In this document: positions 4,372 to 8,251 of the stretch, piece by piece
Layout: the number at the start of each line of letters is the position of its first letter
Numbering within the stretch: position 1 is the first letter of the stretch
Source of the DNA: Acetobacter sp. AN02
GTDB lineage: Bacteria > Pseudomonadota > Alphaproteobacteria > Acetobacterales > Acetobacteraceae
Assembly (NCBI RefSeq): GCF_029759835.1
Contig: NZ_JAJJND010000014.1
Location: 1-39,501 of the forward strand
Reading direction: 5' to 3'
Length of the DNA stretch: 39,501 bases
Program-made: the position numbers and the translations under genes
The notes under the pieces: model-generated
Database searches by the model: none
What the model was told of the DNA's origin: nothing
What the model saw: the letters and a program-made list of their open reading frames with translations, nothing else

Positions 4372-5241
4372 ATGACAATGGAGACTGACCCGGCAGATTT
4401 AGAATTTCAGCGGGCGCTATATAATAATATGCGCCCTATTTTTGGAGATCAAATATCCGACGCGAGTATTGAAATATATGATACTGCAGGTTTTGAAATA
4501 TCCGAAGAAGGGGCCCGCCCTTTTGTAGATTTCGTTAGATGGATAAATACGCGACCTCAATTTATATCCGAATGGCGTTCAGAAACAAAAACAGAACAAA
4601 CACTCTATCCGAGATTTATGACAGTTACTCATGGAGTACGTTCGGCATATTCAGCTGTATGCTATCACTTGATGAGAATTAAAGAAATCGAGGCATCCGT
4701 CGATACCATTTTATCAAAATATGATTTTTCGAGTCAATTTAATCCAAATCAAATCGCTGCTTTTGGAAATATGCGGCAGCTTGATTTTGAATATCACGCG
4801 TTTGTAATAGCATACCGTCGTTGTTTGGATTATCTATCTTGGGGATTTTCAACTTATTTCAAACAATCGCAAAATTCTTATAAAAAATTCAAAAAAACTT
4901 TAGAAAGAGCCCAGCCACGTTCTGTTGCTGAAGCCCTCATGGCCGTCTACGAGAAGCACATAGAAAAATTCTCATTTGTCATTGGAACAGAACGGGGACA
5001 GTCTCTCAGAGATCGCATTGGTCATTCGGAGTTTGTGCCAGCTGCTACGATAAACGTAGGATCAAATGGACACAGGTTCGTCGGCGGAGGAGAAAATCTT
5101 CGGATATCTGATCCTAATGACGACCGTAAATTTTCAGTAATACTTGATGGAAAAGCGCATGATTTGCATAAGTGCATTTCAGATTTTCTATATCAGTTCA
5201 AAGATTCGGTAATTTCATTTGAGAATACTCATACTCGATGA
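4372..5241 (+). CDS. Foreign-looking hypothetical protein with HEPN-like motif
   Basis: This 289-residue protein is not one I recognise. Its codons are strikingly AT-rich (many Ile ATA, Asn AAT, Lys AAA) beside GC-rich neighbours, which points to recent horizontal transfer. It looks soluble and largely helical, with no signal peptide or membrane segment. Residues 211-220 read SLRDRIGHSE, in which R213-D214 and H218 fit the R-x4-6-H motif of HEPN proteins, a helical fold that includes many toxin and anti-phage RNases. The tail (about 223-289) looks more beta-rich. A stand-alone gene with its own promoter and strong RBS, flanked by AT-rich DNA, would suit a defence or toxin-type cargo gene. That is inference from one short motif and the context. 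Confidence 0.7.
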   Translation: MTMETDPADLEFQRALYNNMRPIFGDQISDASIEIYDTAGFEISEEGARPFVDFVRWINTRPQFISEWRSETKTEQTLYPRFMTVTHGVRSAYSAVCYHLMRIKEIEASVDTILSKYDFSSQFNPNQIAAFGNMRQLDFEYHAFVIAYRRCLDYLSWGFSTYFKQSQNSYKKFKKTLERAQPRSVAEALMAVYEKHIEKFSFVIGTERGQSLRDRIGHSEFVPAATINVGSNGHRFVGGGENLRISDPNDDRKFSVILDGKAHDLHKCISDFLYQFKDSVISFENTHTR

Positions 5242-5251
5242 AAATTTAACG

Positions 5252-5273
5252 GAATATTATCTACACAATATTC
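5252..5273 (+). terminator. Possible terminator hairpin after the AT-rich gene
   Basis: GAATATT (5252-5258) and AATATTC (5267-5273) pair perfectly around an 8-base loop, 11 bp after the stop codon, and are followed by TTATTATAA. The stem is AT-only and weak, so termination is possible but not certain. Confidence 0.3.
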
Positions 5274-5544
5274 TTATTATAACATAGACAATCGTATTTT
5301 TTACATAAATATAGAAAAATCATGGAATATTCTATAATATATATGCACATGTAATTTAAAAAATATTAAAATATAGTGATTGTGACACTACATTGATGCC
5401 AGTTGGTTAATATCCTCTACTCGAAATCTGATTGGCCATGCCATATGTCCTATATGAAGGCGCAAGCAGTCGCGCTCACAACCAACAATCTTCCATATCC
5501 ACTGCCACACCCGCACGAACTGCCAGCAGCACCAAAGCCACCCG

Positions 5545-5577
5545 TTGCACGCCATAAAAAAAGAACATAATATGAAC
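5545..5577 (+). promoter_or_regulatory. SOS promoter with LexA box
   Basis: GAAC-ATAATAT-GAAC (5563-5577) is a direct repeat with a 7-base spacer. It is the reverse complement of GTTC-N7-GTTC, the LexA operator of Alphaproteobacteria. It covers a possible -10 TAATAT (5568-5573), which lies 17 bp after a -35-like TTGCAC (5545-5550). A start of transcription 7 bases after the -10 would fall on or next to A of ATG 5580, so the message may be leaderless; no Shine-Dalgarno sequence is visible. LexA bound here would block RNA polymerase. The box is read directly. The promoter assignment and SOS control are inferred. Confidence 0.75.
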
Positions 5578-5579
5578 AA

Positions 5580-6821
5580 ATGTCATCCCTCAGTATCACC
5601 GAACGCTTGGAGATTCTGGCAGACGCCGCAAAATACGACGCCTCCTGCGCATCCTCAGGCACGGACAAAAGACACAGCCGCGACGGCAAAGGCATAGGCT
5701 CGACCCAGGGCTCAGGCATCTGCCACGCCTATGCCCCGGACGGCCGCTGCATCTCGCTGCTGAAAATCCTGCTGACAAACCACTGCATCTTCGACTGCCA
5801 TTACTGCGTAAATCGCAAAAGCTCCAACGTCAGACGCGCAAAATTTACACCCGAAGAGGTCGTGGATCTGACGCTGAGCTTCTACAGACGCAACTACATC
5901 GAAGGGCTATTCCTCTCTTCCGGAATCATAAAATCCTCAGACCACACAATGGAGCAGATGACGGAAGTCGCCCGCTCCCTGCGCGAGGATCACGGCTTCC
6001 GCGGCTATATCCACCTCAAGACCATCCCGGAGGCAGATCAGGACCTGATCGCCCGCGCAGGCCGCTGGGCAGACCGCGTTTCCATCAACGTCGAACTGCC
6101 CACGGAAAAAGGTCTGGCCGAACTGGCGCCCGACAAGAACGGCACCCGGATCGAAAACGCCATCGCCCATATCGGAAACGTCATAACAGAAGCAAAAGAT
6201 GCACGAAAACGCTTCAGACACGCCCCACGCTTCGCCCCGGGCGGACAGTCAACCCAGATGATCGTCGGAGCAGACGCGGCAAATGACAGCCAGATCATCG
6301 GCAGGGCAGGGCTACTGTACAGCCGCTACAGCCTCCGCCGCGTCTATTATTCCGCCTTCAGCCCCATATCCGAGGCCAGCGCGGTCCTCCCCCTGAAACG
6401 CCCGCCGCTCATCCGCGAACACAGGCTTTATCAGTCAGACTGGCTCGTCCGCTTCTACGGCTTTTCCGTCACAGACGTGCAGAACGCCACAGACGCCACA
6501 GGAATGCTGCCACTCGATATCGACCCCAAACTGGCCTGGGCCCTGCGCTACAGAGACAGCTTCCCCGTCGATATCAACGCGGCCCCGAAAGACATGCTGC
6601 TCCGCGTCCCCGGGCTCGGAACAAAAGCCGTCGGAGCCATCCTGCAGGCCAGACGCCACCACCGCCTCCGCCTTGACGATCTGAGCCGTCTCACACGTTC
6701 GATCGCAAAAATCCGCCCGTTCGTCATAACTGCAAACTGGAAACCAACCCTCCTGACAGACAGGATCGACCTGAAAAAACGCCTCACACCCCAGTCGGTC
6801 CAGACGGAACTGTTCACATGA
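5580..6821 (+). CDS. UDG-linked radical SAM protein, putative DNA repair/modification
   Basis: The 413-residue protein belongs to the radical SAM family that comparative genomics links to a UDG-like partner (the TIGR03916 type). The cluster motif is C69-IFD-C73-HY-C76. Family blocks include the N-terminal ILADAAKYDASCASSG, GICHAYAPDGRCISLLK, YIEGLFLSSG and GYIHLKTIP. Residues about 335-370 form a helix-hairpin-helix (LLRVPGLGTKAVGAIL), a non-specific DNA-binding element. The last residues, Q408-T-E-L-F412, resemble the QxxLF peptide by which repair proteins bind the sliding clamp DnaN. The family is expected to do radical chemistry on DNA or a DNA-linked substrate; the reaction is not known to me. 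The start fits the family N-terminus. The stop overlaps the next start by 4 bp (ATGA), so the two proteins should be made together. Confidence 0.9.
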   Translation: MSSLSITERLEILADAAKYDASCASSGTDKRHSRDGKGIGSTQGSGICHAYAPDGRCISLLKILLTNHCIFDCHYCVNRKSSNVRRAKFTPEEVVDLTLSFYRRNYIEGLFLSSGIIKSSDHTMEQMTEVARSLREDHGFRGYIHLKTIPEADQDLIARAGRWADRVSINVELPTEKGLAELAPDKNGTRIENAIAHIGNVITEAKDARKRFRHAPRFAPGGQSTQMIVGADAANDSQIIGRAGLLYSRYSLRRVYYSAFSPISEASAVLPLKRPPLIREHRLYQSDWLVRFYGFSVTDVQNATDATGMLPLDIDPKLAWALRYRDSFPVDINAAPKDMLLRVPGLGTKAVGAILQARRHHRLRLDDLSRLTRSIAKIRPFVITANWKPTLLTDRIDLKKRLTPQSVQTELFT

Positions 6822-8251
6822 CCCCCGAAGAGCCCCGGCACGACAGGCTGCACACCGTCACCATCACCTGTCCGGATGATCCTCAGGAATGGCGCGACAA
6901 GGCAAGACGCCTGGCCGCAGCAGAAATCCCGCCCGGGATGATCCGGTGGACGGAAACAGACGAAACCGCCACAGACCTGTTCGGAACATATTGCGAAACA
7001 ACGGATATCCCGCCCGCCCGAAGAACCGTCAGAGCCAGCCGGGCCTTCCTGCACCTCGCCGGAAGCGTCCTGCTGCACAGGGACAGAGCCCGCTTCCCCG
7101 CATTATATCGCCTGCTGTGGCGGTTGCAGGGCGCCCCACATCTCATGGAAAACCGGGGTGATCCGGACGTCCACCGGCTCATGATCATGGCCGGACAGGT
7201 CCGCCGCGATATCCACAAAATGCGCGCCTTCGTCCGCTTCCGCCATATCGGAACGCCGGACGGAGAGGAACGCTACATCGCATGGTTCGAACCGGATCAT
7301 CATATCGTCAGAGCCAACAGCAGCTTTTTCATAAACCGCTTCGCCAGCCAGAACTGGTCGATCCTGACGCCGGATCTCTGCCTGCACTGGAACGGAACCG
7401 AACTCAGCGAAACAGCCGGAGCCCGGAAATCAGACGCTCCTGCAGAAGACGCAACCGAAGAACTGTGGCAGCGATACTACGCATCGATCTTCAATCCGGC
7501 ACGCCTCAAGATTTCCATGATGGTCAGGGAAATGCCCCGTCGTTACTGGAAAAATCTCCCCGAAGCCCGTCTGATCCCGGAACTGATCGCCGGTGCCCAG
7601 GCGCGTGAGGCCGCAATGGTGGAGACAGGCGCAGACCCGTTCCCCGGACCGCCCCCCGAAACACTGCAGGAGATCGCGGCAGGCATCGCCACCTGCCGCG
7701 CCTGCCCGATCGGCTGCAACGGCACCGCCGCCGTCGCAGGGCAGGGGCCGGAAAAAGCCCGTCTGCTGATCGTCGATGAGCAGCCCGGAGAAGCAGAACT
7801 CAGTCAGGGATCACCCCAGACCGGACATGCCGCGCAGATACGCAGCCGACTGTTCCCGCACAGCCGCATCACCTACGCCATAAAACACTTCAAATTCACA
7901 CAGAACGGCAATTTCCGCCTGCCAAAACCCGCCGATGCCAGAGAAACCGATATCTGCCGCCGATGGCTGAATGCAGAACGCCGGATCATCCGCCCGGACA
8001 TCATCCTCGCACTCGGCCCCCGTGCAGGCCGCGCCATCCTCGGCCGCACGCCCTCCCTGGAACGGGAACGCGGGCAGTTCATTCCTCTGCCGGACGGCTC
8101 CCGGCTGATCCTCACCGCTCATCCCGCATCATTCAACGCCCTCAGCCCGGAATCCCGGCAGAAAGCAGAGGAAAAACTGCAGAACGACCTGGACCTGATC
8201 CCGCAGGACTGCCTTCAGCCAGCCCCCGAACCCGGACTTTCGGCTGAATAA
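6818..8251 (+). CDS. DUF4130-uracil-DNA glycosylase superfamily fusion
   Basis: The protein has 477 residues. Residues about 85-245 form the DUF4130 domain (RFPALYRLLWRLQGAPHLM, DIHKMRAFVRFR, WFEPDHHIV, FFINRF). Residues about 280-460 form a UDG-superfamily domain nearest to UdgX and the UDG-linked clade. C293, C296 and C380 fit an iron-sulphur cluster, with C300 nearby. The UDG motifs have drifted: the usual GEQPGD-type motif reads DEQPGEAEL (320-328), the following P-F-V-G-P-A-G block reads PQTGHAA (333-339) with Q334 in place of the Phe, and the KRRIH loop typical of UdgX reads NFRLP (365-369). IKHFKF (355-360) and HPAS (435-438) are kept. It may therefore bind lesions rather than excise uracil, or use another base. 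It is translationally coupled to the radical SAM gene and presumably shares its LexA control. Confidence 0.87.
   Translation: MTPEEPRHDRLHTVTITCPDDPQEWRDKARRLAAAEIPPGMIRWTETDETATDLFGTYCETTDIPPARRTVRASRAFLHLAGSVLLHRDRARFPALYRLLWRLQGAPHLMENRGDPDVHRLMIMAGQVRRDIHKMRAFVRFRHIGTPDGEERYIAWFEPDHHIVRANSSFFINRFASQNWSILTPDLCLHWNGTELSETAGARKSDAPAEDATEELWQRYYASIFNPARLKISMMVREMPRRYWKNLPEARLIPELIAGAQAREAAMVETGADPFPGPPPETLQEIAAGIATCRACPIGCNGTAAVAGQGPEKARLLIVDEQPGEAELSQGSPQTGHAAQIRSRLFPHSRITYAIKHFKFTQNGNFRLPKPADARETDICRRWLNAERRIIRPDIILALGPRAGRAILGRTPSLERERGQFIPLPDGSRLILTAHPASFNALSPESRQKAEEKLQNDLDLIPQDCLQPAPEPGLSAE

Follow-up and report, generated by a model that had tools for sequence, protein, structure and literature searches.

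What reaction is carried out by a bacterial gene pair in which one gene encodes a radical S-adenosylmethionine (SAM) protein and the other a fusion of DUF4130 to a uracil-DNA glycosylase (UDG) fold, and which of these parts belong together? The question is raised by a locus of Acetobacter sp. AN02 on a stretch of 39,501 nucleotides (positions 1 to 39,501 of contig NZ_JAJJND010000014.1, assembly GCF_029759835.1; henceforth the window). The pair is genuine, of long standing and linked to DNA damage, since LexA-type boxes stand before it and imuAB- and dnaE2-like genes are found as neighbours of its relatives. The reading that we favour, with rather more confidence than doubt, is that radical-SAM protein and DUF4130 form the core of a two-subunit radical-SAM system that is SOS-regulated and acts on damaged DNA, with UdgX, the type of UDG domain found in the fusion, as a separate and detachable unit.

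Pairing and LexA-type boxes

The radical-SAM protein scores 560.5 bits against the NCBIfam family TIGR03916 (rSAM_link_UDG; curated cut-off 343.5) and matches Pfam Radical_SAM (E 7.2e-8), while its other NCBIfam matches are weak, the best being ThiH and MoaA at E 0.0028. The fusion protein scores 212 bits against TIGR03915 (curated cut-off 112.25) and contains Pfam DUF4130 (E 7.6e-41, 140 bits versus a cut-off of 27) and Pfam UDG (E 2.1e-11). A first-pass annotation of the locus had described an ATGA overlap of the two genes, a CxxxCxxC cluster site in one protein and DUF4130 joined to a UDG fold in the other, all of which we recover, and had rightly regarded the pairing as known from comparative genomics with its reaction unsolved: TIGR03916 and TIGR03915 are listed without a biochemical function. 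Its helix-hairpin-helix corresponds to an HHH_3 match that is weak (20.2 bits, Pfam cut-off 27), and its statement that the products are made together suits most loci but not all. We compared two sets of loci, set 1 (L001-L099, with 80 from named genomes and the remainder being relatives of the window and the window itself, L096) and the wider proteobacterial set 2 (L188-L286), which have at least two genomes in common (L081/L189 and L092/L207); L100 has no radical-SAM match. Among the 97 set-1 loci with both genes, 51 have the 4-nt overlap, 73 have the genes within 50 nt and 20 have them more than 300 nt apart (maximum 1495), and the corresponding numbers for 83 set-2 loci are 32, 77 and 4 (maximum 2780).

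The first-pass annotation had proposed a phylogenetic profile, with partners found apart as often as together as the outcome that would speak against it; the profile shows them together almost throughout. In a class-level sample of 289 genomes the radical-SAM family exceeds its cut-off in 18 and DUF4130 in 18, with both in 17 of the 19 genomes that have either. The exceptions are G081, with a partial radical-SAM match only, and G218, with DUF4130 and a radical-SAM remnant (65.6 bits). A phylum-level sample of 398 genomes, which overlaps the first, gave 84 genomes with the radical-SAM family, 87 with DUF4130 and 84 with both (84 of the 87 with either), and E. coli, one of 14 control genomes, has no match to TIGR03916 or TIGR03915. 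The genome of the Caulobacter crescentus laboratory strain matches both families. DUF4130 is alone in G504, G520 and G588. To follow its integrity we scored 37 conserved positions, which were picked from rows in most of which the partner is present, so that high counts in such rows arise by construction, and from which truncated congener rows were omitted; the G520 protein keeps 31 of 37 and the shortened G588 protein 33. At all three loci (L206 in G504, L204 in G520 and L203 in G588) divergent imuA/imuB-like matches lie next to DUF4130 where no radical-SAM gene is present, and two of the three have a LexA-type box about 165 nt upstream.

Six cysteines of the radical-SAM protein (Cys23, Cys48, Cys57, Cys69, Cys73 and Cys76) are invariant in all 163 aligned rows and in 4 of 4 more distant rows. 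The last three form the radical-SAM cluster site, and the first three, judged by their conservation, probably hold a second iron-sulphur cluster.

Directly upstream of the pair stands a LexA-type box. In set 1 a box of the form GAACN7GAAC lies within 150 bp upstream of the radical-SAM gene in 97 of 99 loci, and the remaining two carry sites that deviate by one or two letters; across the 97 the only invariant columns are both GAAC halves (by construction) and a TA within the spacer. In set 2 a box was found in 74 of 83 loci, as GAACN7GAAC or its reverse in 55 rows and as CTGTN8ACAG in 19, whereas GAACN4GTTC occurred in 0 of 83; two GAACN4GTTC sites lie upstream in a more distant faecal scaffold (L295). 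We take the three motifs to be the LexA boxes of alphaproteobacteria, gamma- and betaproteobacteria, and Firmicutes, respectively. When the box was required to end before the start codon, 71 of 83 set-2 loci had one, whereas 200 resamplings averaged 0.37 and never gave more than 3, and boxes were present in 3 of 1574 random windows and in 0 of 83 regions upstream of the DUF4130 start. A background count over 917 other ATG-initiated open reading frames (ORFs), spurious ones included, gave 31 boxes, but this control is not clean because 26 of the 31 are upstream, on the plus strand, at imuA-like ORFs, and the resampling and random-window controls were used instead. The passages available of PMC12700426 and PMC8565304 give GTTCN7GTTC as the LexA motif for Caulobacter and Alphaproteobacteria, and those of PMC6595937 give CTGT-N8-ACAG as that of most Betaproteobacteria. 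In the genome of Acetobacter sp. AN02 the same type of box precedes recA (GAACACATAGTGAAC, 19 nt before the ORF as drawn), and GAACTAAAATAGAAC lies 42 nt beyond the end of the match to a LexA homologue (173.2 bits). A promoter box that is conserved in relatives is expected of a member of a LexA regulon; the pair has such a box and is presumably under LexA control. The first-pass annotation mentioned neither this box nor the altered UDG active site described below.

The neighbourhoods of relatives lead in the same direction. In L013 the order is imuA-like, imuB (IMS, DUF6504), radical-SAM, DUF4130-UDG and DNA polymerase III alpha, where the imuA-like gene has no Pfam match and is named by its place. 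Genes resembling imuA, imuB and/or dnaE2 lie within 4 kb of the pair in 37 of 80 Sphingomonadales loci, and the pair is situated between imuB and dnaE2 in 32 of 80; loci cut by contig ends were scored as misses in these counts, and the identity of the imuB and polymerase families was taken from L013. The window itself has no imuA-, imuB- or dnaE2-like neighbours, and its genome has a single PolC-type match and hence no DnaE2.

UDG loss and reverse decay in the fusion protein

The UDG domain of the window scores 161.5 bits against TIGR03914 (UdgX), under the curated cut-off of 189.95. Aligned to Mycobacterium smegmatis UdgX it carries N91Y, F65Q, H109P and R184A, and it retains E52, Q53, R107, H178, K94, H95 and three cysteine columns, with K94, H95 and the cysteine columns also retained in L189; these are the columns that would hold the iron-sulphur cluster. 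Thus Gln53 and Arg107, which are diagnostic of UdgX, are in place, but proline occupies the position of the His109 nucleophile in the R-loop KRRIH. Mutational results in the accessible parts of PMC10776899 show that N91A and H178A of the M. smegmatis enzyme are folded and inactive, that F65A is inactive and unfolded, and that H109A keeps weak excision, and PMC10359453, in the parts at hand, assigns the cross-link to H109 and a role in substrate binding to R184. Because of the four substitutions, the window UDG is expected to have neither uracil excision nor cross-linking activity, and it can at most be a scaffold or binding surface. The model of the first-pass annotation, in which the UDG-fold part finds a damaged base, is hence unsupported for this copy, which is without N91, F65, H109 and R184.

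Is this loss peculiar to the window? The positions E52/N91/H109/H178/R184 read ENHHR in 131 of 137 other UDG-bearing DUF4130 proteins. They read EYPHA in the window, DTPAD in L189 (same genus) and GY-HW in L252 (same phylum, other class); among the remaining exceptions, L284 aligns poorly and both L012 and L031 are truncated. L035 differs in H109 alone (changed to Asn), its pocket being otherwise intact, and is thus a naturally occurring single-site variant at the cross-linking histidine. In a tree built from 108 radical-SAM rows (L001-L080 thinned to one row in eight; L284 and L205 omitted; quick search with SH-aLRT support) the three UDG-dead lineages represent three separate changes. General decay was weighed as the cause of the changes in the window, and the distribution of the changes speaks otherwise: they affect 10 of 22 active-site columns versus 2 of 19 other conserved columns in the window (Fisher p 0.016) and 13 of 22 versus 3 of 19 in L189 (p 0.0052), while L252 has 10 of 22 versus 7 of 19 (p 0.41), for columns that were grouped by hand and are not independent (L284, L012 and L031 omitted). 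The losses thus look concentrated in the active site in the window and L189, and L252 resembles general decay. The DUF4130 parts of the same three proteins keep 37, 37 and 35 of the 37 conserved residues. Moreover, DUF4130 is fused to UDG in 59 of the 83 radical-SAM-bearing set-2 loci and lacks a fused UDG in 24, separate UDG genes elsewhere not having been sought. The 24 loci without UDG, along with the pocket lost in three separate lineages, argue that UdgX is detachable.

The reverse decay is found in congeners. Among 25 genomes of the genus, that of the window included, the radical-SAM gene is present in 12, of which 11 have DUF4130 over its cut-off, the twelfth (G010) having a fragmented one; DUF4130 is over the cut-off in 0 of the 13 without the radical-SAM gene. 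A distant DUF4130-like match of about 430 amino acids occurs in 12 of these 13 (not in G007) and in 6 of the 12 with the radical-SAM gene. Three such proteins, in L199 and L200 (genomes without the radical-SAM gene) and L202 (with it), retain 21, 17 and 15 of the 37 DUF4130 residues and score 57-59 bits against TIGR03915, and all have the complete ENHHR set and UdgX scores of 262-289 bits; they lay outside the set used to choose the 37 positions, and the broken L201 was left unscored. The gene beside these fusions is, we assume, MurJ-like.

These patterns bear on the explanation proposed in the first-pass annotation, in which the locus encodes one linear repair machine whose UDG fold flips or captures a damaged base or abasic site, which the radical-SAM protein then reverses or alters. 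The frequency of the fusion and the intact pocket of 131 of the 137 fusions outside the window would suit such a machine. However, the window, L189 and L252 have lost the pocket yet keep radical-SAM protein and DUF4130, DUF4130 occurs without a UDG domain in more than a quarter of the loci (with the restriction on separate genes given above), and the intact UdgX of congeners sits on a degenerate DUF4130. We therefore regard a single linear machine as unlikely. A fuller version of the favoured reading is one that we put forward tentatively, at somewhat less than even confidence: radical-SAM protein and DUF4130 may constitute a radical enzyme with two clusters, widespread and induced by the SOS response, whose chemistry of DNA repair or DNA alteration is as yet undescribed; UdgX would have been gained, lost or inactivated beside it independently, and the reciprocal decay of the fusion halves would mark the functional boundary.

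Features, origin and surroundings of the window copy

Table 1. Positions of the gene pair, its box and its residues of interest in the window, with three fusion genes of congeners (coordinates of their own loci).
Feature	Position	Strand	Detail	Basis
LexA-type (SOS) box GAACATAATATGAAC	5563-5577	+	GAACN7GAAC; ends 2 nt before radical-SAM start codon	
Radical-SAM gene	5580-6821	+	413 aa, TIGR03916 rSAM_link_UDG	ORF list, Pfam/NCBIfam profile searches
Cys23	5646-5648	+	invariant; candidate second Fe-S cluster ligand	alignment
Cys48	5721-5723	+	invariant; candidate second Fe-S cluster ligand	alignment
Cys57	5748-5750	+	invariant; candidate second Fe-S cluster ligand	alignment
CX3CX2C (Cys69, Cys73, Cys76)	5784-5807	+	radical-SAM cluster site, residues 69-76	motif, alignment
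Helix-hairpin-helix (HHH_3)	6564-6662	+	residues 329-361	Pfam, below cut-off
ATGA overlap of both genes	6818-6821	+		ORF coordinates
DUF4130-UDG fusion gene	6818-8251	+	477 aa	ORF list, Pfam/NCBIfam profile searches
DUF4130 region (TIGR03915)	6866-7567	+	37/37 conserved positions retained	
UDG-fold region, UdgX-like	7739-8191	+	predicted catalytically dead	Pfam, residue alignment
UdgX F65 position	7817-7819	+	Gln	alignment to UdgX
UdgX N91 position	7874-7876	+	Tyr	alignment to UdgX
UdgX H109 position (DNA cross-linking His)	7922-7924	+	Pro	alignment to UdgX
UdgX R184 position	8138-8140	+	Ala	alignment to UdgX
Degenerate-DUF4130 fusion genes	L199 3046-4323; L200 2635-3897; L202 3007-4302		intact UdgX, congeners	

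The window pair was likely transferred from a Sphingomonadales-like source, since its radical-SAM protein is closer to that of Novosphingobium (L001, 77% identity) than to the copies of 17 congeners (57-63%), whose DUF4130 mostly stands alone. It also groups with L001 and L212 in the 108-row tree. Identity to L001 is 58% for DUF4130 and 47% for UDG, and L001 and L212 share 82%, 67% and 70% in radical-SAM protein, DUF4130 and UDG, respectively. Just upstream of the pair, at 4372-5579, the sequence is AT-rich (GC 37-45% in 1-kb windows versus about 60% in the flanks), a possible island border; a 289-amino-acid ORF within it has one Pfam match, below cut-off, and no NCBIfam match at E <= 1. The gene that follows the pair is on the opposite strand and is, from its position, presumably murA-like. 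Two side observations concern the surroundings: an ORF at 84-869 on the minus strand of the window has matches to DUF1653 as well as to cytochrome b561 (Ni_hydr_CYTB), an unusual fusion, and in Novosphingobium silvae (L001, 7758-9236) LigD-type ligase domains lie downstream of the pair.

Plasmid records numbered 158, and a Neokomagataea plasmid copy shows 67.8% identity and an intact UdgX pocket. We rejected the idea of a typical phage gene: a viral scan with the radical-SAM alignment returned 102 stretches with 2 relatives among them, and one with P0002 returned 10 stretches matching a pattern, none of them a relative. A phage collection gave 10 records; of the four examined, three are unverified faecal scaffolds, and the fourth, Acinetobacter 'phage' H42 (L293, CAKLQH020000003.1 89509-96558), has glyS and glyQ next to the pair and looks like bacterial chromosome filed as phage.

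Proposed mechanism, alternatives and known systems

In the mechanism that we propose for an SOS-regulated core of radical-SAM protein and DUF4130, DNA damage would make LexA fall and the operon would open together with recA. DUF4130 and the helix-hairpin-helix would position the radical-SAM active site at the lesion, with the SAM cluster on Cys69/73/76 and a probable second cluster on Cys23/48/57. A 5'-deoxyadenosyl radical would then start a reaction that directly reverses or alters the damaged base and lets replication proceed past it. We infer that the two proteins form a complex, and direct reversal of the base is a guess at the reaction.

Several points weigh against this proposal. G504 has a DUF4130 with 37 of 37 conserved residues and an intact UdgX but no radical-SAM match, so that DUF4130 is able to persist after its partner is gone, at any rate for some time. 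The pocket retained in 131 of 137 proteins indicates selection for UdgX activity alongside the pair in most carriers. The 39.5-kb window contains one box match, equal to the shuffle expectation (mean 1.04), and the genome contains 81, so the case for the box is made by its position and conservation; 12 of 83 set-2 loci have no exact box (5 of these have one at one mismatch). Of the structural models, that of DUF4130 is good (pLDDT 86.1) but finds no fold in PDB at E <= 0.001, no function being read from its weak matches, and that of the radical-SAM protein is poor (pLDDT 66.6), with residues 19-59, the region of Cys23/48/57, below 50. Finally, DNA is a substrate that we infer.

A quite different explanation is that the pair makes or removes a DNA base modification, or repairs nucleotides, and does not act on a lesion, UdgX guarding against side products. 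The NCBIfam name leaves modification open, the three extra invariant cysteines recall the sulphur-inserting or substrate-binding auxiliary clusters of LipA, MiaB and MoaA, and the weak Foldseek matches of the poor radical-SAM model to PDB include HydE and human LIAS. Yet the damage-inducible promoter site and the imuAB/dnaE2-like neighbours suit repair better than a standing modification, and neither a modification enzyme nor a restriction gene was noticed next to the pair, although no systematic search was made; we consider this explanation improbable. More doubtful still is a photoproduct reversal system like spore photoproduct lyase (SplB), which the radical-SAM family, DNA context and SOS link would fit, but whose model is neither among the 16 NCBIfam families matched at E <= 1 (HMMER filters drop weak matches) nor among the top 50 listed PDB folds of the poor model, and for which neither a six-cysteine pattern nor an obligate DUF4130 partner is known. 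Both explanations can appeal to PMC3765255, in whose available passages DUF4130 figures as a predicted mutagenesis-related enzyme linked to UDGs and to SplB-like photolyases, and the linked enzymes are termed SplB-like and said to be ones that 'might modify thymines'.

With the SOS-regulated core as the preferred reading, the pair matters as a common proteobacterial system (84 of 398 sampled genomes) that has an SOS site but no known reaction, and its natural UDG-dead and DUF4130-degenerate fusions tell which parts belong together and serve as ready controls. If radical-SAM DNA repair with a second cluster is borne out, the pair would join spore photoproduct lyase as an example of radical chemistry acting on damaged DNA, and it would add to the SOS response a step absent from E. 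coli, the usual model.

How does the pair compare with known systems? NCBIfam TIGR03916 and TIGR03915 describe the same pairing, and both window proteins are well over the curated cut-offs; the six-cysteine pattern and the UDG loss are absent from the model lines seen. M. smegmatis UdgX is a clear homologue of the window UDG (E about 1e-25 to PDB chains), which differs from it by the sub-cut-off score and the four substitutions. LipA, MiaB and MoaA are radical-SAM enzymes with a three-cysteine auxiliary cluster and share with the window protein CX3CX2C and three further invariant cysteines, but they are unrelated to it at the family level, and its second cluster is a predicted one. The closest precedent for the regulation is an operon of COG1573 and COG4277, the latter being, we believe, the radical-SAM family of the window. 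In the parts of PMC8565304 available, this SOS-type operon is described for Bacteroidetes, with Verrucomicrobia and Alphaproteobacteria (Caulobacter) cited; like the window pair it places a UDG and a second repair gene under a LexA-type box, but it is presented as UDG-based base excision repair, whereas the window UDG is predicted to be dead and the box is retained. With the pairing already in NCBIfam and SOS control of a UDG/COG4277 operon already in print, 'undescribed system', as the first-pass annotation had it, was too strong; no account of dead UDG domains or of reciprocal decay of the fusion halves was found in the open-licence literature searched, where DUF4130 and the names TIGR03914, TIGR03915 and TIGR03916 turn up in two papers. 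Spore photoproduct lyase, lastly, likewise belongs to the radical-SAM enzymes with a known or proposed action on DNA; the window protein has no match to its family, and the pair has in addition a second set of three invariant cysteines and DUF4130 as partner.

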